From: Acinetobacter defluvii
Lineage (GTDB): Bacteria > Pseudomonadota > Gammaproteobacteria > Pseudomonadales > Moraxellaceae
DNA length: 64,000 nucleotides
Direction of reading: 5' to 3'
Assembly (NCBI RefSeq): GCF_001704615.3
Contig: NZ_CP029397.2
Location: 2,046,001 to 2,110,000 of the forward strand
The position numbers and the translations under genes are program-made. The notes beneath the pieces are model-generated. The model worked only from the letters and a program-made list of their open reading frames with translations, was not told the DNA's origin and did not search any database. This document shows, one piece after another, positions 53,394 through 64,000 of this stretch (position 1 is the stretch's first letter; every line of letters starts with the position of its first letter).

Positions 53394-55010
53394 ATGGGAA
53401 CAATTGCAGAACGAACTACAGCAGATGGTAAAACTCGATACAGAGCTCAAATACGAATAACTCGTAAAGGCTTACCACCATTTATTAAAACAAGAACTTT
53501 TGCAAAAGAGTCATTAGCCAAAGAATGGATTAAGCGACTTGAAGCAGAGATTCTTGTTAATCCTGCTATTCTAAATCCAGAAGCTAAGGTTGTGTCAAAA
53601 ACTTTAGAACAATTCATCACTCAATATTTAGATGAAATTAGTGATGAATTTGCTGATACCAAAACTGCAGCACTAAAAAATATATGTAATTATGATATTG
53701 CCCATAAAGATGCTTATACCCTTTCACGTCAAGATTTCTCATCATTTGCCATTGAGCGACGAAAAGGCAATCCAATTGAAATGATAGATGGAGTTGCCCC
53801 AGCAACTGCATTAAAAGATTTATCCCATATTTCATCGGTTCTAAACCATGCTGAACTTGTATGGGGTGAAGATGTTGCACATGCAAAAAATGAATTATCA
53901 CATTCGCTGATCGGTCTAAAAAAAGCTCGTATTGTTACTAAATCAAAGGAACGTGATCGTTTAATCACATCAGAAGAACTTCATATTCTGACCAATCACT
54001 TTTATAAAGGCTGGAAACGAGTTCGCAATGCCATTCCTATGCACCTGGTCATGTGGCTTGCGATCTATACAGGTCGTCGTGAAGGTGAACTATGTGAAAT
54101 GCGTTTAGCTGATTTTGACAAAAAAAATAGTCAATGGAAGATCAGAGACGTTAAAAATCCAGATGGATCCAAAGGAAATCATAAGTTTGCCCATTTAGAG
54201 CCTAATGCCCTCCTCATTATTGAAGAATTACTTGAACCTTCTACTCGAAAAAGAATGCTGGAGCTGGGTTATAGTGATGAGCTTTTATTACCTGTCAATG
54301 TACAGACGGTCAGTGATTATTTTCGTAGAGCATGTCGTTTAAATGGTATTGAAGATTTAAGGTTCCATGATTTACGCCATGAAGCTGCAACACGCTATGC
54401 AGAGGATGGTTTTACGATACCTCAGCTTCAGACTATCACGCTACATTCATCATGGAACAGTCTTAAACGTTATGTGAATTTAAGGAAGCGTGGCGAACGC
54501 CTGGATTACCAAGCAGCTATTCAATTTGCCCGACAACAATATGACGATAATTATTCTAAATTTGCTTTAAAACAAAGGTATGTATCAGCTGCTGATATTG
54601 CGGATGCAGAGGAAGCTTATTCTCAAGTTCAAACACCTGACGTTATAAATACTGAATTTTCTTTTATCAAAGAACAATTGGAAAGATTTATGAAATCATT
54701 CCGCCCGACTAAAAGTGTTAAAGATATGTATAAAGAAAAATCCAATATACAGAACATATTTGCATGGAATGATGTGCAACAGTCTTTTGTAGTCCCATAC
54801 ATACAAAATGCTTGGGAAAATTGGTTTAATGACAATGGAAATATTGATTGGAAACAGCTTCCAGATGATACAACTCACTTTAGCATCAAAGGGTTAGACG
54901 TATTAAAAATTGAAAATGAACATGTGTATAAATGGGAAAAAGAAATAGAAAAATGGTTCGATATTACTAAATATTTTGATGCCGATATTTCAAACCTTAT
55001 CAAGAAATAA
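53394..55010 (+). CDS. int: prophage tyrosine recombinase (integrase)
   Basis: The 538-residue protein starts with an AP2-like arm-binding region (residues 1-50, GTIAERTTADGKTRYRAQIR). A core-binding domain follows (about 65-180) and then the catalytic domain, with R229 in TGRREGEL, H325 and R328 in HDLRHEA, H351 and the nucleophile Y360 in HSSWNSLKRY. A tail of about 160 residues (375-538) beyond the usual end is unexplained. It lies next to dusB and is convergent with the lysis cassette. It should integrate and excise the prophage. Confidence 0.93.
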   Translation: MGTIAERTTADGKTRYRAQIRITRKGLPPFIKTRTFAKESLAKEWIKRLEAEILVNPAILNPEAKVVSKTLEQFITQYLDEISDEFADTKTAALKNICNYDIAHKDAYTLSRQDFSSFAIERRKGNPIEMIDGVAPATALKDLSHISSVLNHAELVWGEDVAHAKNELSHSLIGLKKARIVTKSKERDRLITSEELHILTNHFYKGWKRVRNAIPMHLVMWLAIYTGRREGELCEMRLADFDKKNSQWKIRDVKNPDGSKGNHKFAHLEPNALLIIEELLEPSTRKRMLELGYSDELLLPVNVQTVSDYFRRACRLNGIEDLRFHDLRHEAATRYAEDGFTIPQLQTITLHSSWNSLKRYVNLRKRGERLDYQAAIQFARQQYDDNYSKFALKQRYVSAADIADAEEAYSQVQTPDVINTEFSFIKEQLERFMKSFRPTKSVKDMYKEKSNIQNIFAWNDVQQSFVVPYIQNAWENWFNDNGNIDWKQLPDDTTHFSIKGLDVLKIENEHVYKWEKEIEKWFDITKYFDADISNLIKK

Positions 55011-56619: not shown

Positions 56620-57207
56620 ATGCGCATGAGTGTATTAAAAATTACAACATTTATTTTACTGTGTATTCCAGTAAATCTATATGCAGGGGTTTACAAATGG
56701 GTTGATGCAAAAGGTAATGTTACCTATTCAAGTAAACCACCACCAACGGGTGCAAAACAACAGAAGATTGAAACGATCCGCTCGCTTGGATCAGCTCCTG
56801 CTCCTCAACGAGCATATTCACAGAGCAATCGAAATTCTGCGCAACAATCCTATCAGTCGCAAAATTATAGTCGCCAAACATATAGTCCACCTCGACAACC
56901 AACACGCTCTGCTGAACAAGAGGCTGAAAGACAAGCGTTATTAAGGTCAGCAAGCACTCCATATAGTGGAGCAAGAGGTTTAACAGCCAGTCAACGCAAT
57001 ACACTATCAACTTTAAATGGTGGTGATAATTCTAGCGGTGGCTATTCAAATAGTTCTCAACGCCAACCATCGACAGTATCAAATTGTGATAGTTCAGGTT
57101 GCTGGGGATCAGATGGTACTCGTTATAATCGTGGTGCTGGTGATACTTACTTTCCTTCTACTGGTGGCTCATGCCAAAATGTCGGCGGACAAATGCAGTG
57201 TAATTAA
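56620..57207 (+). CDS. DUF4124 domain exported protein (prophage cargo)
   Basis: The 195-residue protein has a signal peptide (residues 3-23, ending NLYA). A DUF4124 domain begins GVYKWVDAKGNVTYSSKPPPT. The rest is a long Ser/Gln/Asn/Gly-rich, low-complexity tail with four cysteines near the end (NCDSSGCWGSDG, SCQNVGGQMQCN). The domain is common in gammaproteobacterial envelope proteins and has no known function. It points opposite to the lysis genes and has its own terminator, the pattern of a prophage cargo (moron) gene. Confidence 0.82.
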   Translation: MRMSVLKITTFILLCIPVNLYAGVYKWVDAKGNVTYSSKPPPTGAKQQKIETIRSLGSAPAPQRAYSQSNRNSAQQSYQSQNYSRQTYSPPRQPTRSAEQEAERQALLRSASTPYSGARGLTASQRNTLSTLNGGDNSSGGYSNSSQRQPSTVSNCDSSGCWGSDGTRYNRGAGDTYFPSTGGSCQNVGGQMQCN

Positions 57208-57213
57208 ACAATT

Positions 57214-57240
57214 AAAGCCGACATCAAGTCGGCTTTTTTT
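57214..57240. terminator. intrinsic terminator behind the DUF4124 gene
   Basis: The arms AAAGCCGAC and GTCGGCTTT enclose a 5-base loop, followed by T. The leftward Arc-type gene ends here as well, so it may serve both. Confidence 0.8.
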
Positions 57241-57556
57241 AATTCAATTGATTAATTAATTCTAACATTCTGCTTTTCGATGGATCGTCATCAGGTAGCT
57301 TTTCAGCTAGTTTAAGTACAAGAAGATTAGAGATTTCTAATTGTTTTTTAATCATATCATTTTTTTCTTCAACAGCCTGCATGTATTCAGAAACTAATGT
57401 TGAAGGAATATTGTTTTCAAAGCTCTTTTCTAAACGAGCAACAATTTCTTGATTCATAGAACGATTATTTGCTTTTGCTGTATTTACAATTTTCTCTCTA
57501 AATTCAGGTGATACTCGAACTTTGAGCGTCACAACACTGTTTTGATCTTCACTCAT
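57239..57556 (-). CDS. Arc-type ribbon-helix-helix repressor
   Basis: The 105-residue protein has an N-terminal Arc fold (residues 8-47): the beta strand VTLKVRVSPEF, then helices REKIVNTAKANNRSMNQEIVARLEKSF. The second half is a helical, likely coiled-coil, extension (EYMQAVEEKNDMIKKQLEIS) that may help oligomerise. It is transcribed leftward from the palindrome-bearing control region shared with a second ribbon-helix-helix gene. It resembles Arc/Mnt of the P22 immI region and should repress the divergent antirepressor operon. Confidence 0.88.
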   Translation of the reverse strand: MSEDQNSVVTLKVRVSPEFREKIVNTAKANNRSMNQEIVARLEKSFENNIPSTLVSEYMQAVEEKNDMIKKQLEISNLLVLKLAEKLPDDDPSKSRMLELINQLN

Positions 57557-57580
57557 GAAAAATTAACCCAAATAAAACGA

Positions 57581-57652
57581 ATATTACCCCCAAAATGGGT
57601 CTTGACCAATAACCCCAAAATGGGTACTATAAATCAACACCCCATAATGGGG
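57581..57652. promoter_or_regulatory. divergent promoters with three operator palindromes
   Basis: The rightward promoter has -35 TTGACC at 57602-57607 and -10 TACTAT at 57625-57630, 17 bases apart. The leftward promoter has -35 TTGGTC (57604-57609 read leftward) and -10 TAATAT (57581-57586), also 17 bases apart, so the two -35 boxes overlap. Palindrome 1 (around 57589-57599) fills the leftward spacer and palindrome 2 (57614-57624, CCCAAAATGGG) fills the rightward one. Palindrome 3 (57641-57651, CCCATAATGGG) covers the rightward start region. Centre spacings are 25 and 27 bases. Confidence 0.75.
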
Positions 57653-57666
57653 ACTAGGAGAAGATA

Positions 57667-57822
57667 GTGGAGAATGAATTTGTTTATGTGAAAGCTCGCT
57701 TAGAAGAAGAACTTCACAAAGAACTTAAGGTTATTGCTAATTCAGAAAAACGCTCAATGGTATTTCTATTGAATGAGGCAGTTAAATTATTAATTGAAAA
57801 TAGAAAGAGTGCGAAAGCATGA
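57667..57822 (+). CDS. small ribbon-helix-helix protein, 51 aa
   Basis: The frame runs from GTG at 57667 to TGA at 57820-57822. AGGAG lies six bases upstream of the GTG. The product has a beta strand (FVYVKARLE) followed by two helices (EEELHKELKVIANSEKR, then SMVFLLNEAVKLLIENRK), the Arc/MetJ-like fold with little else. It is the first gene of the rightward operon that ends with the antirepressor, facing the Arc-type repressor. It probably acts as a second repressor, as Mnt and Arc do in P22. Confidence 0.8.
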   Translation: MENEFVYVKARLEEELHKELKVIANSEKRSMVFLLNEAVKLLIENRKSAKA

Positions 57823-57950
57823 AATCAACAGGCACAAAAAAACCTTGTTCAACTACCACATCGCACAAGGTTCAGTTGCCATCACTAAGGATGAATACCT
57901 ATGAACAATATAACTCAATTCACCCAAGACAAGCAAGTTCAAGTCAGTGA
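57819..57950 (+). CDS. possible 43-aa overlapping small ORF
   Basis: An ATG overlapping the TGA of the preceding gene (ATGA) opens 43 codons, beginning MKSTGTKKPCSTTTSHKVQL. The frame overlaps the next gene by 50 bases. A hairpin (AACCTTGT at 57841-57848, ACAAGGTT at 57865-57872) lies within it. There is no strong ribosome site or family match, so translation is uncertain and the hairpin may be a control element for the genes behind. Confidence 0.22.
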   Translation: MKSTGTKKPCSTTTSHKVQLPSLRMNTYEQYNSIHPRQASSSQ

Positions 57951-58191
57951 GCAACAATTACGGAGTTTGCTTGAATTTGTGCGTATCGCAAATAATCGTT
58001 TTGATGAAATTTCAGCATTAACAACTGTAATTGCTGAAAAGTCAGAACTATCCCCAACAATCAAAACTTTGGCACATTTAGCTTCATCAATAGCAAATAA
58101 CTTTCAAGATATTTGTGTTGAAGAATTTGATAACTTCAAAGAACGCTCACCAGATTTGGTAAAGTTTTTTGCAGAGGAGTTGGCAGCATGA
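57901..58191 (+). CDS. hypothetical prophage protein, 96 aa
   Basis: No family is recognised. It is a small, acidic, mostly helical protein with no membrane segment or cysteine-rich motif except a single Cys in DICVEEF. A good ribosome site (AAGGA nine bases upstream) and ATGA overlap with the antirepressor gene place it in the same operon. By position it could be an immunity-module accessory. Its function cannot be deduced. Confidence 0.72.
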   Translation: MNNITQFTQDKQVQVSEQQLRSLLEFVRIANNRFDEISALTTVIAEKSELSPTIKTLAHLASSIANNFQDICVEEFDNFKERSPDLVKFFAEELAA

Positions 58192-58910
58192 ATGCAATTG
58201 TTCCTGTACAAATTCAAATGATGACAAGTTTGGAAATTGCTGAGCTTGTTGAAAAACGCCATGACAATGTTAAGCGTACAATCAAAAATTTAGTAGATCA
58301 ACGAGTTATAACGCTTCCTCAATTTGAGGAAACGTCTTTTCTAAATTCAATTGGTCGAAAACAAAACACTATTGTTTATAAGTTCACAGGTGAACAAGGT
58401 AAGCGTGACAGTATTATTGTAGTTGCTCAATTATGCCCTGAATTTACAGCTCGCTTGGTAGATCGTTGGCAAGAACTTGAGGCTCAGGTTGCTCAACCAG
58501 TATTTGATATTTCAAATCCTTATCACCTACTACAAGCAATTGAAACTCAGGCAAAACAAAATATCGAGCTAACCCAAAAAGTTGAAAAACTTGAGCCCAA
58601 AGCGCAAGCACTCGATACCATTGCTGAAACAGTACATACCTACTGTATCCGTGAATGTGCCAAAACAATTGGAATAAAAGAAAAGGATCTCATTAATCTT
58701 TTACTTCAAAAAAAATGGTGTTATCGAGATGCTGAAAAGAAATTACAACCACATGCACAGTATGTGTTGAATGGTGTTTTTACCAATAAAGCATCACCAG
58801 TAATCAAAAATCAAAATGATGGTCAAGAGCGTGTATTTTTACACATGCGAGTGACAGCATTTGGCTTGACTAGGATTACAGGTTTAGTAAATAAGGAAAA
58901 ACTCAAATAA
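58188..58910 (+). CDS. phage antirepressor (Rha N-terminal and KilAC C-terminal domains)
   Basis: The 240-residue protein has an N-terminal pRha-type domain (about 10-100: MMTSLEIAELVEKRHDNVKR, then TIVYKFTGEQGKRDSIIVVA). The C-terminal KilAC-type domain (about 130-237) includes LDTIAETVHTYCIRECAKTI, KKWCYRDAEKKLQPHAQYV and HMRVTAFGLTRITGL. Proteins with this C-terminus are phage antirepressors that bind and inactivate the main repressor. It is the last gene of the rightward operon and ends before a strong terminator. The repressor it targets is not visible in this window. Confidence 0.88.
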   Translation: MNAIVPVQIQMMTSLEIAELVEKRHDNVKRTIKNLVDQRVITLPQFEETSFLNSIGRKQNTIVYKFTGEQGKRDSIIVVAQLCPEFTARLVDRWQELEAQVAQPVFDISNPYHLLQAIETQAKQNIELTQKVEKLEPKAQALDTIAETVHTYCIRECAKTIGIKEKDLINLLLQKKWCYRDAEKKLQPHAQYVLNGVFTNKASPVIKNQNDGQERVFLHMRVTAFGLTRITGLVNKEKLK

Positions 58911-58922
58911 AATCCAATAAAG

Positions 58923-58950
58923 AAGCCACCGCAAGGTGGCTTTTCCCTTT
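58923..58950. terminator. intrinsic terminator between antirepressor and PLxRFG gene
   Basis: The arms AAGCCACC and GGTGGCTT enclose a GCAA tetraloop, followed by TTTTCCCTTT. It lies between two convergent genes and could work both ways. Confidence 0.75.
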
Positions 58951-61900
58951 AACGATTAAACGCAAACCCACCTTGCTCCTCAGCACCTTTCTGCCGTTTA
59001 GTAAGGTATACACCTCCATCACCAGTTTCTTTTGCTTTACGCTCAGTAGCTTTATAGCTTTGCATAAGGTTCATGCGACTAATTCGCATCTTTGGATTTT
59101 TCTCGGCAGTTTTTGCATTAAATTCCAAAATTTCAGTCCATACTTTATTCATGCCATCACTGTCATCTTCTTGTCGAGCCACCACCCACTTGCGCATCAA
59201 CTCACGTCGATGATCTTCCAGCTTAGTTCTATATTGGAAAATCGCAGACCGCCCCTCGTATGAGGTTCTTACCGATGCCGGTGAAAAACCAATGGCTTGA
59301 GAAAATAACTCAACCCCTGTGACATCCTTATCATGAATCACATCCTTATTTTTGGTTAACACCCCCTCATCAGCATAACGGTAAGACTTCATCGCATTTT
59401 TAAGAAAAATCGGCAGCATAGTCTCTATACCACGACCGTAATCACCTTCTTGAATTTGTTGCAAGCCTTTTACTGTACTTGTGCTAATACCTACGACTGG
59501 TCCAAGTAATGCAGATTGCATTGCAGTTGCCCAATCTGCACCTTCAAGTCCTTCCTGTACGTCAGGAATAATTAAGTTGTTTAGACCGACTCGACCTGAT
59601 AAATCCACTGGGCTGAATACGCGAGGTACACCACCAAATACCAAATCAGCAAACTTAGGATGAATATCTGCCAACCAGTTTCGGATTACAATTTCCAACT
59701 CATAAGGGTCTTCCTCGTCGCCATCCGCAGCACCAAAGAACGCCACAGCCCAAGCCGCAAAAAATGCAGCAGAACCGAGTTTACTTTTCTTTGCGATTAA
59801 AATAGAGGCAGTGAAAAGCATTCCTGTAATTGGTAATCCAATTGCACCAGCTGCCAAAGTCGTCATACCCAAAATACCAGCCAAAGCACGACGAGCCTCT
59901 TTTTGTTCCTTAGGATCGAGCGCATAAATTGACTGATGGGCATTGCGTACCAAGGTATAAATCATATTCTGAGCATATTGTTTAAATAGTAATACCACTT
60001 TTGCAATATTACCTTGCATAAAACGTGCTCGGTTTCCTGTTGAATAATCAAAATGACCTTTATATACAGCATCGATTGCTTGTTCAAAAGCTTCACTGTG
60101 TGTTGCCTTTGAACCATTAGTATTAACATGCTGACGTGCTAGACGATAGGCTGCAATGAAAGTTACTTCACGGTTAAACCGTTCTGCATGATGAAACATG
60201 CCACTTGCCAAACGCATAGCTGGTCGGAAATACCACATCACCTTACTATCTTCACCTTGAGCAATACCTGCTAAATCATGAGCCTGCGTAACATCAATCA
60301 CACCACGCTTTACAGCTTCTTCATACGCAACTAGTTCATCACCTTTTAATATTGATGCAATATCTGGGTTATAGATATCACCAACACTATTTTTAAAGCC
60401 CTCTAAGCTTGAAAAGTCTGGCGTTTTATATCCACTTTTTAAACCAATTCCAAAGTCTTGTGATGCTTTTAATAATTCCTTTCCAGCTTTATCAAAACCC
60501 CATTTCGCACCCATGATTGGATAAGCAATCAAAGCTGTCTGAGATAAATTGACCATGGCAGCAGCGGGAGATAATCCCATGTAATACATGAAACCGACAC
60601 TTGTAAGAAAACTTGATAATGGATTCCCTTTAGGATTCATTAAAAGTTCATGTCTTTTTTCCATTTCATCAATAACATCATTAGCAGAATTCTGGTCATA
60701 GCCAACACCTTTTTTAAATTGATCTTCAGAATACTTTTTCATTTCATCAAGTTGTTGAGCCAATTGATCGCCATAACGCAACTTCCCTAAATAATTTGCA
60801 CCACTAAACATATGTTGTGCAAATGCCCGACGTGCATCATTGCTAAAGCCTGCTGTACCCTTACGGTGAATCCCATGTTTTGCCCAGGATAAATCAGGCA
60901 TAGATGATAGATATAATTGACTTAGAGTGTCTTCAAAATCAGCTTGTGATTTTGCATCCAAACCCAAATTTCCCACCTCATCAAAAAGATCAGACATGAA
61001 TCCACGACCAACGCTGTCACGACTTGCATTGAACTCCGCATCTTTTTTTACGTCATCAGCCTTATATTGTGGATATTTTTTTATTAACTCTGCACGAACC
61101 GATTCAGCTTCATTTTTAGTTTCAGCACGACTAACAACCTCAGCCTCACCATTTTGGTTACGCAGTACCACCACGTATTTACCAAAACGAGCTAAAGGAA
61201 AATAAACACCTTTAATTTGACCAAAAGAACCCTCTATTTTCTGCAATAAATCTGCTTTTTTCTGGCTGCTTAAAGCTGATCGCAAAATGCGTTCTCTAAT
61301 CGCTTCACGAACTTTGGCATAATGCCCACTATAGGCATTTCGAGCCTTTTTATACATTGCCTGTGCTTCAGGGGATAAATTATTATACGCATGGAGTAAT
61401 TGTTGATATTTAACTTTATTATCGCCCTGTTGGTATGGTTTAGCAGGGTCAATTTGAGCTAAAGTTGCATCATGCATTACATTTGCTAAAGCTTCTTCAT
61501 CCTTTAATTTAGACCACTCACGTACAATATTATCCGCTTCAGCAGCAATATCATTCTTATCAGCATCCATCTGAGCTGCAAGTTCATTATATTTATTTAG
61601 TGGTGGTAATAATTTTCCATAAATCTCAGTTAAATGTCGGCGACTTAAAGCTTGTAAGCCGAATTTCAACCAATCGACACCTTTTTTATTAATCCAGTCA
61701 CCTGTTTTGGGCAAATTTTTAAACCCATTAGCGATACGATTGGTAATATCATCATAGTTAGAACTACGGCTAAATCTAATATCTGAACTTTCACTATTAA
61801 ATGTGCCTTTATTCCCCTCAGCCATTTTTACTTGATTAGGCTCTAACGCAACAATATATTCTTGATTTTCAAACTGATGAACAATTCCCTGATATTTCCC

Positions 61901-64000
61901 AGAAGTTGTCGCTTCTACAACTTCCTCACGTGAAACATTACCTGTAGTTTTGAACGCATTCCGAATGTTTACAAATAATGGAAGTACAAAGCCATTTTCC
62001 CCACGGATATTGGCGTATACATCTGCTGTATCAAAACTATCAGTTAAGTAAATGCCATCCCCTAATAAGCCATGACCCTGCTTAAATTCATTAAACTCGG
62101 TGGCAGTACCATGATAAACAACCTTAGGCTCCCCATTTTCATCTAATACCTGTGAAGCATTTGCAGCATCATTTTCCCAATCACCAAACCATTTTTTAAA
62201 CTCAGGTGTACGGACTTGTAACCATTGCTGTTCTGAAAGATGGGTGGCTGCACCGTTTGGTGCTTTCATCCATTGATTTGTACCATGATATTTTTGACGA
62301 ACTAGATCCAATGATGATTGATGTTTAATTTGCCCAATCATGCGCTCTGACAATGCGAGCATATCGTCAGGATTTAAATTAAGATTGATACCAAAATGAT
62401 CAAATACCCATGCTTTTACATACGAAATAATATTGTTAATCAATTTTTGTAATGCATTCCGTTGGAGCACATTTCTTTGTTGCATCGTTGCCGAAAGCGT
62501 TAATAAATATGGTAAATATTCAAGCTGCTGACGTTCAGAGCCTTGTTCACGTTCTGCAAGCATCTTTGCAGCTAAAGCAACAGGATTACCCTGCTCAACT
62601 AATTTATTAAATTGATTCATCAATTCATTATATTGTTTCTGGTTCATCATATTTTGAAAACCAGCATGACCACCCAACTCATGTAAGAATGTTGGCACTG
62701 TGCTTTCAGCAGTCAGATTCGATGCAACGAGTACCGCTTTACCCTTGTAATAGAAGCCCTCAACACCTTCAACCTGATAATCCTGAATAATCTCAAGCTT
62801 ACCTTGTCGTTCAAGCTCATCAATGGTCTCTTTACCAAAACGATCAATCAACACGTCTCGTACTTGTTGAGTTGTAGAACCTGAATTGCTCTTAGTGCGA
62901 CGGCTATAAAGTGGAGTATTAGAATTGTTCTTAGATGAAAATTCTTGATTTTTATATTTACCAAAATAGCTTCGATCAACTACAGCCTTACGAGCTTCTG
63001 ACAAAAACATCATCAAATCGGCATCATTGTAACGTGAAAGGAATTTATCAAAGCCACGATCGCGGAACCACTGACGAATATATCCAATAACTTCTTTTAG
63101 CTTTTGACGTACAAAAGGACGTGACTTAGCATTTTGAGCGATAAAGGCAAATAACTCACTTACAGTTGCTTGTTGAGCATCAAGAGGATCGTAAAGCCCT
63201 TCATCCACGCCTTTTTTAAATGGTTTTAGGTAGGCATTTTCAAATTGATCCATGTCAACGCCATTTTCTTTGGCAATTTTTCGAACACCGTCAACCCCAC
63301 CTAGGGCATTAAAAAGTTGCTGAAATTTGACTTTATACTCTTTCCCAAATAATTGCTGAACACCAAAATGCCCAACCACTTCGTGTAATAAAACTTCCTC
63401 ATATGCTTCATAAGTAGTTTGTTGTGTATTATGATTTCCTTGGACATCGCCAGCATTAATATAAAGTGTACCCTTATGCCAAACAGCACTTACCTCATAA
63501 CGTTGAGTATTACCATCTTTGTCTTGGTAATAGTTGTCTTGCTGTATCGCTTCTGGCAAAGCCTCAAACGATTCAACGACAATAAACGGAAATTTGGGTT
63601 GTACTACCCTGTTGACTACACTTTTCGCCCCACTTGGCGTGCTCCCTTTCGTGATCCGAAGGAGTATATCCGTTACAAGCCGATCTACGACATTTTTAGG
63701 AAGAGGCGAGAATAAAGTTGATAATGGTGATGCACCTTTACGCTCGTTGTCAGGTTTTAATTTGTCACGGCTATAGTCATCTATTTTTTTATTTCTTTGC
63801 TTTAATTCCCCATTCTTACGTGCCTTAATATAGGTTTCCAAATCCACACGATTTTTTAAAAACCGATCCAACGCACCGGCTGCAACCGCCTTACGTGTAC
63901 TACGTTTCCCGTTCACCACCTCATTTTCGCTTTGCTTTTGTGCCTTGGCAATTTCTTTATTTAGATGTTTCAGTGATTGCTGTAATTGCTCATCTGAAGC
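58949..64000 (-). CDS. giant polyvalent (PLxRFG domain) prophage protein, N-terminus outside window
   Basis: The frame is open from the right edge, so the 1656-residue reading from GTG at 63919 is not the true start; at least 1683 codons are present. Numbering from that GTG, there are two metallopeptidase-like zinc motifs, HEVVGH (179-184) and HELGGH (413-418). An ADP-ribosyltransferase-like domain of the polyvalent class spans about 595-718 (VVYHGTATEFNEF, GDGIYLT, IVALEPNQVKMA, SSDIRFSR). A PLxRFG motif (FPLARFGKY) marks the long helical C-terminal half, with a hydrophobic segment near AGILGMTTLAAGAIGLPITG. Such giants are thought to enter the host with the DNA or shield it from defence. 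Function here is inferred. Confidence 0.85.
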   Translation of the reverse strand, partial: ASDEQLQQSLKHLNKEIAKAQKQSENEVVNGKRSTRKAVAAGALDRFLKNRVDLETYIKARKNGELKQRNKKIDDYSRDKLKPDNERKGASPLSTLFSPLPKNVVDRLVTDILLRITKGSTPSGAKSVVNRVVQPKFPFIVVESFEALPEAIQQDNYYQDKDGNTQRYEVSAVWHKGTLYINAGDVQGNHNTQQTTYEAYEEVLLHEVVGHFGVQQLFGKEYKVKFQQLFNALGGVDGVRKIAKENGVDMDQFENAYLKPFKKGVDEGLYDPLDAQQATVSELFAFIAQNAKSRPFVRQKLKEVIGYIRQWFRDRGFDKFLSRYNDADLMMFLSEARKAVVDRSYFGKYKNQEFSSKNNSNTPLYSRRTKSNSGSTTQQVRDVLIDRFGKETIDELERQGKLEIIQDYQVEGVEGFYYKGKAVLVASNLTAESTVPTFLHELGGHAGFQNMMNQKQYNELMNQFNKLVEQGNPVALAAKMLAEREQGSERQQLEYLPYLLTLSATMQQRNVLQRNALQKLINNIISYVKAWVFDHFGINLNLNPDDMLALSERMIGQIKHQSSLDLVRQKYHGTNQWMKAPNGAATHLSEQQWLQVRTPEFKKWFGDWENDAANASQVLDENGEPKVVYHGTATEFNEFKQGHGLLGDGIYLTDSFDTADVYANIRGENGFVLPLFVNIRNAFKTTGNVSREEVVEATTSGKYQGIVHQFENQEYIVALEPNQVKMAEGNKGTFNSESSDIRFSRSSNYDDITNRIANGFKNLPKTGDWINKKGVDWLKFGLQALSRRHLTEIYGKLLPPLNKYNELAAQMDADKNDIAAEADNIVREWSKLKDEEALANVMHDATLAQIDPAKPYQQGDNKVKYQQLLHAYNNLSPEAQAMYKKARNAYSGHYAKVREAIRERILRSALSSQKKADLLQKIEGSFGQIKGVYFPLARFGKYVVVLRNQNGEAEVVSRAETKNEAESVRAELIKKYPQYKADDVKKDAEFNASRDSVGRGFMSDLFDEVGNLGLDAKSQADFEDTLSQLYLSSMPDLSWAKHGIHRKGTAGFSNDARRAFAQHMFSGANYLGKLRYGDQLAQQLDEMKKYSEDQFKKGVGYDQNSANDVIDEMEKRHELLMNPKGNPLSSFLTSVGFMYYMGLSPAAAMVNLSQTALIAYPIMGAKWGFDKAGKELLKASQDFGIGLKSGYKTPDFSSLEGFKNSVGDIYNPDIASILKGDELVAYEEAVKRGVIDVTQAHDLAGIAQGEDSKVMWYFRPAMRLASGMFHHAERFNREVTFIAAYRLARQHVNTNGSKATHSEAFEQAIDAVYKGHFDYSTGNRARFMQGNIAKVVLLFKQYAQNMIYTLVRNAHQSIYALDPKEQKEARRALAGILGMTTLAAGAIGLPITGMLFTASILIAKKSKLGSAAFFAAWAVAFFGAADGDEEDPYELEIVIRNWLADIHPKFADLVFGGVPRVFSPVDLSGRVGLNNLIIPDVQEGLEGADWATAMQSALLGPVVGISTSTVKGLQQIQEGDYGRGIETMLPIFLKNAMKSYRYADEGVLTKNKDVIHDKDVTGVELFSQAIGFSPASVRTSYEGRSAIFQYRTKLEDHRRELMRKWVVARQEDDSDGMNKVWTEILEFNAKTAEKNPKMRISRMNLMQSYKATERKAKETGDGGVYLTKRQKGAEEQGGFAFNR

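Follow-up and report, generated by a model that had tools for sequence, protein, structure and literature searches.

The immI region of phage P22 (mnt-arc-sar-ant) is a classic example of a genetic switch, and most of what is known about it comes from phages of enterobacteria. In that region the leftward gene is mnt, the 53-aa gene opening the ant operon is arc, and ant runs with the late genes beside which it lies. Under the name "ant moron", P22-like phages and prophages of other hosts have been described as carrying within the late operon a variable block with expression of its own, in ten types among sixteen genomes, which in this respect is comparable with the module characterized here; the part of that description considered here does not mention that operators or the sar hairpin are exchanged (PMC2629481). 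Closer to the present host, Acinetobacter phage TCUAN1 (ON531988) carries a divergent ribbon-helix-helix (RHH) gene, a small gene, an accessory ORF and a gene annotated as anti-repressor, together with three operators and a hairpin. Lastly, proteins of the Rha/Roi type combine an N-terminal Rha domain with a C-terminal KilAC domain, as does the effector described below; since the Roi match touches ninF in several lambdoid records, those genes lie among the nin genes rather than in an immI-type module.

The window analyzed here, a stretch of 64,000 nucleotides from Acinetobacter defluvii, contains at 57239-58910 the four genes that a preliminary description had placed there and had compared with P22 immI. 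Specifically, L (57239-57556, minus strand) encodes a 105-aa RHH repressor with a helical tail, and on the plus strand follow R (57667-57822, 51 aa, GTG start), an RHH gene that opens the rightward operon in the position of arc, ORF96 (57901-58191, 96 aa, unknown), and an antirepressor-type effector gene with Rha and KilAC domains, as assigned by Pfam and PHROGs (58188-58910). Gene order and orientation agree with those annotated for P22 immI. The overlapping stops and starts described earlier are present between ORF96 and the KilAC gene (4 nt), while R and ORF96 are 78 nt apart. A hairpin 3' of the KilAC gene (58923-58942), read from the sequence, is the probable terminator of the rightward operon, and is reported by a terminator scan on the minus strand only. 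Beyond it lies a giant gene (58949-63919, minus strand) to which the KilAC gene stands tail to tail, so that the operon of the module, though located among late genes as in P22, runs against them here, whereas P22 ant runs with them. The giant gene had been likened to P22 gene 16, a homology that was not borne out, the matches being to PLxRFG, LPD39 and ART-PolyVal.

A search for the same gene set in other Acinetobacter genomes, as had been proposed, used alignment A1 for R; with matches accepted up to E 1e-5, this gene was detected in 31 of the 175 Acinetobacter genomes covered, and the L core was present upstream of R on the opposite strand in 97 of 100 R loci; such frequencies argue that the pairing of these genes is not due to chance. 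When 293 genomes of the order were searched with A1, weak matches (E 1e-7 to 5e-6) were obtained in five genomes besides that of the window. In a partial coverage of the literature, at the level of titles and the beginnings of abstracts, no report of such modules in Acinetobacter was found.

The leftward gene had been assigned the role of Arc. By profile, L matches the Pfam Arc family (PF03869, 6.4e-9), and its comparison with Mnt by hhalign (96.5%, E 7e-10) is equalled by that of the L core with Arc (97.2%); searches of PDB sequences return AmrZ (E 0.00026) and Mnt (E 0.0041), while Foldseek yields no significant match, the best being 1par at E 1.7. Since the leftward gene of P22 is mnt, L holds the place of Mnt even though it is "Arc-type" by family, and position, divergent orientation relative to the effector operon and profile match together indicate that it is the Mnt counterpart. 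The immI comparison is thus largely right on this point, with the two roles reversed.

Three palindromes resembling ACCCCAAAATGGGGT, overlooked in the preliminary description along with a sar-like element, are located between L and R, and one of them falls within the spacer (17 bp) that separates the -35 and -10 of the rightward promoter. This promoter, P_R (57602-57630, plus strand, TTGACC-17-TACTAT), is predicted by a promoter scan and by comparison, and is the counterpart of Pant. A leftward promoter, P_L (57581-57609, minus strand, TTGGTC-17-TAATAT), is proposed by eye; it is weak (7/12 consensus), is not reported by the promoter scan, and has a -35 that overlaps the -35 of P_R. The predicted operators are O1 (CCCCAAAATGGGT, 57588-57600), within the 17-bp spacer of P_L, O2 (CCCCAAAATGGGT, 57613-57625), within the P_R spacer at the place of P22 Oarc, and O3 (CCCCATAATGGGG, 57640-57652), between the -10 and the ribosome-binding site at the place of P22 Omnt. 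As in P22, therefore, one operator occupies the P_R spacer and another lies downstream; unlike in P22, an additional upstream operator (O1) is present and all three go with L, even O2 at the place of Oarc.

Promoter-like sites in the window alone are not in excess (7 versus a mean of 8.1 in shuffles). A de novo palindrome finder recovers three sites in 78 of 100 loci; its score exceeds the best of 60 shuffled regions in 64 loci and is 6 or less in 22. P_R scores at least 9/12 in 71 of 77 unique loci, compared with 22.7% of shuffled regions, and 63 of these 71 loci have an operator in its spacer. Sequence and co-variation thus place putative operators of a Mnt-type repressor over the counterpart of the ant promoter.

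Comparison of sequences among relatives further shows that the predicted operators follow L and not R. This association was analyzed in the 97 of 100 loci in which the L core was recognized by profile, comprising 77 unique combinations, six of them unclassed. At least nine operator classes exist, and each goes with a particular strand motif in the repressor. The site CCAC[CG]GTGG occurs in six loci, all of class E, and the core CCACGGTGG is common to one class and to the annotated Mnt operator of P22 (Omnt). Among pairs with similar L and different R (L at least 70%, R below 60%), 253 of 258 share the palindrome class, whereas none of 66 pairs with similar R and different L (R at least 85%, L below 60%) does so. 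The classes are patterns written after inspection of the sites, with four loci (L046, L134, L135 and L155) assigned by hand, and a class-free partial Mantel test (n=73), which guards against both, gave 0.67 for L given R versus 0.24 for R given L. In the eight genomes with two or more R matches (G070, G086, G093, G105, G107, G121, G141 and G170) the classable copies belong to different classes, the third copy of G141 being unclassed and the observation standing without a computed chance level. Heteroimmunity between modules is not claimed; class A occurs twice in IMG genome 2547132100 (L099 and L111, beside L102 of class B).

With regard to R, the preliminary description had named a structure prediction as decisive for its assignment to the RHH proteins. 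Matches of R to Pfam all fall below the curated cut-off, while PHROGs returns an "Arc-like repressor" (phrog_3180, 1.6e-14). The AlphaFold2 model (pLDDT 91) has an extended N-terminal stretch followed by helices at 14-26 and 31-50, and although no Foldseek match passes E 0.001, the top matches are RHH proteins (6iya, E 0.025, TM 0.86; Arc, 1par, at rank 17), so that the test of its fold is passed. R therefore resembles Arc in fold and in position at the head of the effector operon, but by sequence it is not recognizable as an Arc homologue (hhalign 4.8%).

The earlier proposal that two small proteins keep the antirepressor off is not supported for R: no separate Arc-type operator was found in the spacer of the Pant counterpart, where the operator follows L, and a column-by-column search of the control regions of classes A and B found no R-specific site. 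The differences linked to R in these classes fall mostly within the R gene and close to its ribosome-binding site, with a few columns near L, outside the operators, in both classes and, in class A only, a change in the -10 (TACTAT versus TACATT); an R operator composed of such columns was considered and provisionally rejected, as no site repeats in both classes. There is an even chance that R is not a second repressor of the operon and has its target elsewhere, such as a different promoter, the leader or the leader RNA, or else that it pairs with L and thereby releases it. Consistent with such a role, besides the distance of R from Arc, identical or nearly identical R proteins occur with different operators (classes B and A in L034 and L111, H and B in L138 and L142), and within class B four R types accompany near-identical control regions in which consistent differences begin only at the ribosome-binding site. 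Against it, R equals Arc in position and length, all classes may share an R site that is weak or relaxed, and operator similarity retains its small partial correlation with R (0.24), a value reached in none of 999 permutations.

A further point of comparison with P22 is a sar-like hairpin ahead of the next gene. The sar-like element (57831-57883, plus strand) lies in the leader between R and ORF96 and consists of an outer GGCA/TGCC stem and an inner stem, AACCTTGT/ACAAGGTT (57841-57872). It was found in 68 of 100 loci by a search that required at least six A, such that the minus-strand T-run is present by construction, and its stems show compensatory pairs across loci. Sequence and comparison suggest a probable antisense RNA of about 65 nt (57836-57900, minus strand) that would end in a U-run past the inner hairpin, with a proposed -10, TATATT (57912-57907, minus strand), and no clear -35. 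The promoter and terminator scan of the window lists neither this promoter nor this terminator, whose loop of 16 exceeds the limit of 8, and the antisense stretch folds no better than shuffles (z -1.04). Codons 3-4 of the next gene contain a -10-like hexamer in 38 of 55 distinct elements versus 2 of 56 other ORFs of the window, which served as control for a pattern written after looking; its position at the start of the next gene is that of P22 Psar. RNA model R1, built on the hairpin, misses P22 sar, its two matches in L174 (14.9 and 9.4 bits) lying elsewhere, so the likeness to sar is one of position, stem and flanks as judged by eye. At E 0.01 R1 matches 158 of 175 genomes, from which it follows that ordinary terminators must account for many of the weak matches and that modules cannot be counted from this tally. 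The best Rfam match over the hairpin, PK-repBA, was rejected (20 bits; gathering score 45).

These observations also bear on a rather unlikely alternative, in which the leader hairpin is only a minus-strand terminator that blocks read-through from the opposite direction, or a structure acting in cis to adjust how the next gene is translated. Late genes on the minus strand do run toward the module, and the hairpin followed by T7 resembles a minus-strand terminator; a clear antisense -35 is missing, and the scan reports no antisense promoter; and wobbles of the outer stem are of the sense type (10 G.T and no A.C at the second pair in 42 rows), as suits a structure in mRNA. However, the element is found between R and the gene that follows even where the module lies between tail genes and runs with them, as in TCUAN1, which differs from the window also in operator class (H) and R type. 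In addition, the -10-like hexamer recurs at the same codons of different effector genes, and hairpins differ strongly between near-identical modules, beyond what a plain terminator needs. An antisense RNA of the sar type is probable.

In place of P22 Ant, the operon of the window contains ORF96 and an effector that belongs to the Rha-KilAC family, both Pfam matches being above cut-off (ANT/KilAC 1.5e-20, Phage_pRha 4.7e-12). The effector slot of other loci holds P22_AR_N (as in relative L033), ORF6N-KilAC, KilA-N-KilAC, KilA-N-ORF6C or Bro-N, and antirepressor-type domains were recognized in all eight effector genes scanned from other loci, that of L044 below cut-off. This filling of one slot by several antirepressor-type families speaks against the doubtful possibility that the KilAC gene is not an antirepressor of its own prophage, its product being either a DNA-binding regulator of a general kind or one whose targets are confined to other resident prophages. 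In favor of this possibility are the wide occurrence of KilAC relatives (738 phage records) and a comparison with the nearest relative, L099, which is 94% identical to the window over 1892 nt and departs from it in the central part of the Rha domain, as if target recognition had changed. ORF96 has no match in Pfam or NCBIfam, and its best PHROGs match (0.082) is of unknown function; PDDEXK_4 on a relative of ORF96 was rejected (19.5 against a cut-off of 22.3). It is highly improbable that L, R and ORF96 are an addiction module of the toxin-antitoxin kind, with the KilAC gene as an unrelated neighbor: weak matches of R are indeed to antitoxin RHH proteins (Pfam Antitox_RHH below cut-off, EndoAI 0.0019, the CopASO fold), but no recognizable toxin gene was found with Pfam, NCBIfam and PHROGs, and relatives of ORF96 occur in only 10 of 100 loci, including the window, the effectors scanned elsewhere being antirepressor-type throughout. 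A candidate target for an antirepressor is at hand: about 43 kb further on the same contig lies the gene of a CI-like repressor (L176:17873-18598) whose domain is of the S24/UmuD type, accompanied by a divergent Cro-like gene; the interval contains genes for phage replication and terminase. This repressor presumably belongs to the same prophage.

Taken together, these data suggest, with a probability of roughly 0.77, that the locus is a secondary immunity module of the immI type, which varies the P22 scheme mnt-arc-sar-ant and works as follows. In the lysogen L would bind O1-O3. Through O2 and O3 it would shut the rightward promoter and so prevent synthesis of R, ORF96 and the Rha-KilAC protein; through O1 it would probably limit its own promoter. 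Leaky message would probably be limited by a short antisense RNA that originates at the beginning of the downstream gene and pairs with the leader hairpin. Upon fresh injection of the module, or a fall in L, the operon would be expressed and the KilAC protein would antagonize a repressor; the likeliest target is the CI-like repressor that the prophage itself, or a resident relative, encodes. What stands of the comparison originally drawn with immI is the arrangement of repressor genes before an antirepressor-type gene beside late genes; the Arc and Mnt roles, repression by both proteins and the likeness to gene 16 are not supported.

Across relatives, L with its operators, R, the hairpin and the effector recombine separately. 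It is conceivable, though somewhat short of an even chance, that Acinetobacter phages thereby practice a combinatorial immunity in which L with its operators, R, the hairpin loop and the effector are exchanged separately at fixed junctions, giving many secondary immunity types from one scaffold, and in which R, having lost or never possessed an operator of its own in the promoter region, has a different target, be it L, the leader RNA or another promoter. The operator classes with their matching repressor strand motifs provide a natural data set for DNA reading by RHH proteins, and some modules are near-identical but for one part, which makes the separate role of each part, and that of R above all, directly testable. 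Such modules may also bear on how co-resident Acinetobacter prophages might induce or spare each other.

The module is related to the immI region of phage P22 and probably works in a similar manner, its function being read from sequence. All four genes that the preliminary description had placed between 57239 and 58910 are recovered there by ORF and profile searches. The leftward ribbon-helix-helix (RHH) gene, L (57239-57556, minus strand), encodes 105 aa with a core of Arc type and a long helical tail; AlphaFold2, with an alignment of ten rows, predicts helices at residues 17-29, 34-47, 52-85 and 92-104 (pLDDT 81), and Foldseek returned no significant match to this model, the best being 1par (E 1.7). 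The rightward gene, R (57667-57822, plus strand), encodes a 51-aa product whose earlier assignment as an RHH protein agrees with its predicted fold, an extended stretch followed by two helices (AlphaFold2, pLDDT 91), and with its top Foldseek matches, all RHH proteins and all with E above 0.001. ORF96, the third gene, gave no Pfam or NCBIfam match. In the effector gene (58188-58910, plus strand), Rha and KilAC domains are joined in one 240-aa protein.

On one side the module has lysis genes and a DUF4124 gene as neighbours, and on the other side the gene of a giant PLxRFG/LPD39/ART protein. The DUF4124 gene (56620-57207, plus strand), with a terminator-like hairpin at its 3' side, sits between the lysis genes and L, close to the place of sieA in P22, and is a possible lysogenic-conversion gene. 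The giant protein (58949-63919, minus strand), with matches to ART-PolyVal, LPD39 and PLxRFG, is perhaps a virion protein or an ejected polyvalent protein. The integrase (53394-55010) has 538 aa, of which about 170 extend past the end of the Pfam recombinase match (210-365). About 43 kb onward on the same contig, beyond replication and terminase genes, lie genes for a CI-like repressor (S24/UmuD-type domain) and, divergently, a Cro-like protein; both are presumably part of the module's own prophage. Two publications (PMC3121763 and PMC10432266) reportedly deal with antirepressors and with small modules governing prophage induction.

Three palindromes lie between L and R: O1 (57588-57600), O2 (57613-57625), which falls inside the 17-bp spacer of TTGACC-17-TACTAT, and O3 (57640-57652). 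In the window alone, promoter-like matches are not enriched (7 versus a shuffle mean of 8.1). A search for the same module in other Acinetobacter, as earlier suggested, gathered 100 loci with an R-like gene, 41 of them from genomes of the genus, 58 from viral contigs (some duplicating loci from genomes) and one from phage TCUAN1. A de novo palindrome finder located three sites in 78 of these loci; scores exceeded 8, the maximum of 60 shuffled regions, in 64 loci, equaled 8 in 14 and were 6 or less in 22. In 71 of 77 unique L/R combinations R is preceded by a promoter that matches at 9/12 or better, versus 22.7% of shuffled regions, and in 63 of those 71 one of the operators found begins within the promoter spacer. 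O1 and O2 are 42-43 bp apart in operator classes B and C versus 22-25 bp in classes A, D, E, H and S; the leftward promoter must therefore be laid out differently in B and C. In one locus (L116) the O1-O3 stretch, promoter included, is absent and a single operator remains, as if from recombination between operator copies.

The sites sort into at least nine classes: A (ACCCC..GGGGT), B (GCCACA..TGTGGC), C (ACCTCA..TGAGGT), D (AAGCAC.GTGCTT), E (AACCAC.GTGGTT), F (GTACCT), H (TCACCC..GGGTGA), S (AACACGGTGTT, two unique loci only) and T (TTAGTAC.GTACTAA, one unique locus only). Every class is tied to a distinct L strand motif (VVTLKVRV, HTIVRLRV, HVTVRLRV, PQMNLRV, PQLKVRL, PQYKLRW, TQHKLRM, QQFPLRL, PQFNLRV), with a second one within class A in locus L136. 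Across 71 classified unique L/R combinations, a common class was seen for 253 of 258 pairs whose L proteins are at least 70% and R proteins below 60% identical, versus 0 of 66 pairs with L below 60% and R at least 85% identical. The exceptions are L136 and L132, where class A sites stand beside an L that has diverged (24 of the 1975 pairs below 60% in L), and L090, whose sites are class T and whose L is D-like (9 of the 433 pairs at 70% or more in L). A class-free partial Mantel correlation (n=73) is 0.67 between operator and L given R and 0.24 between operator and R given L, each reached by 0 of 999 permutations. CCAC[CG]GTGG occurs in six loci, all of class E, and the core of the annotated P22 Omnt is CCACGGTGG. 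Because of these associations and of the core that class E shares with Omnt, L is most likely the protein that recognises the operators. R does not seem to recognise them, since one R protein accompanies both A and B sites and another both B and H, and since four R types in class B have common control regions, consistent differences starting at the ribosome-binding site; R may still have a weak site common to all classes.

In the P22 record, mnt is leftward, Pant and Pmnt overlap, Oarc lies in the Pant spacer and Omnt directly past the -10, followed by arc (53 aa), the sar antisense RNA and ant. Matched position by position, L is the counterpart of Mnt and R occupies the place of Arc, which reverses the Arc and Mnt roles first proposed. 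Profile matches of L to Mnt (96.5%) and Arc (97.2%) are about equal, while R hardly matches Arc (4.8%) and weakly matches Mnt (75%). One account describes Mnt as the repressor of arc and ant, Arc as a repressor of mnt that also moderates ant, and sar as an RNA that binds ant mRNA (PMC11016777); other papers call the P22 block the "ant moron," with ten types counted in sixteen genomes (PMC2629481), and mention sar in several phage genomes (PMC13397905). The immI-like reading holds for relatedness and probable working, but two defining features of P22, an Arc homologue and an Arc operator, were looked for and not found, and the slot of P22 Ant holds another effector. For these reasons the module is named an immI-type variant rather than P22 immI.

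In 68 of 100 loci (55 distinct sequences), a pattern search found a hairpin after R and ahead of the following gene. The pattern missed a one-base variant in L099, and L137 is truncated at its contig end. Its layout comprises GRCA, an A-run, an inner stem, mostly GCCC..GGGC or AACCTTG..CAAGGTT, and a closing TGYC-like end. In 42 aligned rows, which are related sequences rather than independent events, five scored inner pairs change in step from G-C to A-T and from C-G to T-A; all 11 of their cells that depart from Watson-Crick pairing are of C.A type, equivalent to antisense G.U, with zero G.T. Two further inner pairs nearer the loop are poorly conserved. In the outer stem the second pair has the opposite pattern, with 10 G.T and no A.C, and the fourth is broken in 8 of 42. 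In 38 of 55 sequences a minus-strand -10-like hexamer overlies codons 3-4 of the gene that follows, and in 12 it lies 6 nt beyond; among the window's 56 other ORFs starting with ATG, 2 have it at codons 3-4. P22 Psar likewise overlies ant codons 3-4. From these features we infer a sar-type antisense RNA. Several results count against it: a clear -35 is absent, a promoter scan of the window lists no promoter there, a search with the hairpin model did not match P22 sar, and the folding z-score of the antisense stretch reaches only -1.04. Seven loci (L039, L041, L043, L056, L085, L090, L094) lack the hairpin at its usual place and have a model match 0.73-0.84 kb past R, at about the end of the effector gene. 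Model matches became 20 loci, of which the eight not beside an R of the query alignment type were inspected: six matches have L upstream and are set between a different small RHH gene and an effector or accessory ORF, a seventh also has L upstream with no small RHH gene listed, and the last follows a Bro-type gene.

Parts of the module appear to be exchanged separately between loci. In 51 pairs with R 90% to <100% identical, many sharing a member, median identity is 0.53 for the hairpin versus 0.95 for R, the hairpin being the lower in 44. L142 matches L143 at 99% across R and the control region and at 50% in the hairpin; with L138, L143 shares the hairpin, their control regions being 65% alike. 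The window and L099, 94% identical over 1892 nt, differ in the hairpin loop and in one compensated stem pair; the middle of the Rha domain (gene 58188-58910) is strongly diverged between them despite the overall 94%. Eight effector genes from eight loci comprise P22_AR_N, ORF6N-KilAC, KilA-N-KilAC, KilA-N-ORF6C, Bro-N (two) and Rha-KilAC types, the eighth being of Rha type below the cut-off. One genome carries three immI-type modules (L042, L056, L095) within about 41 kb (G141:C3, ~958-1000 kb). It is unexpected that R, though in the place of Arc, is without a visible site there, and also that a single scaffold serves many exchangeable specificities.
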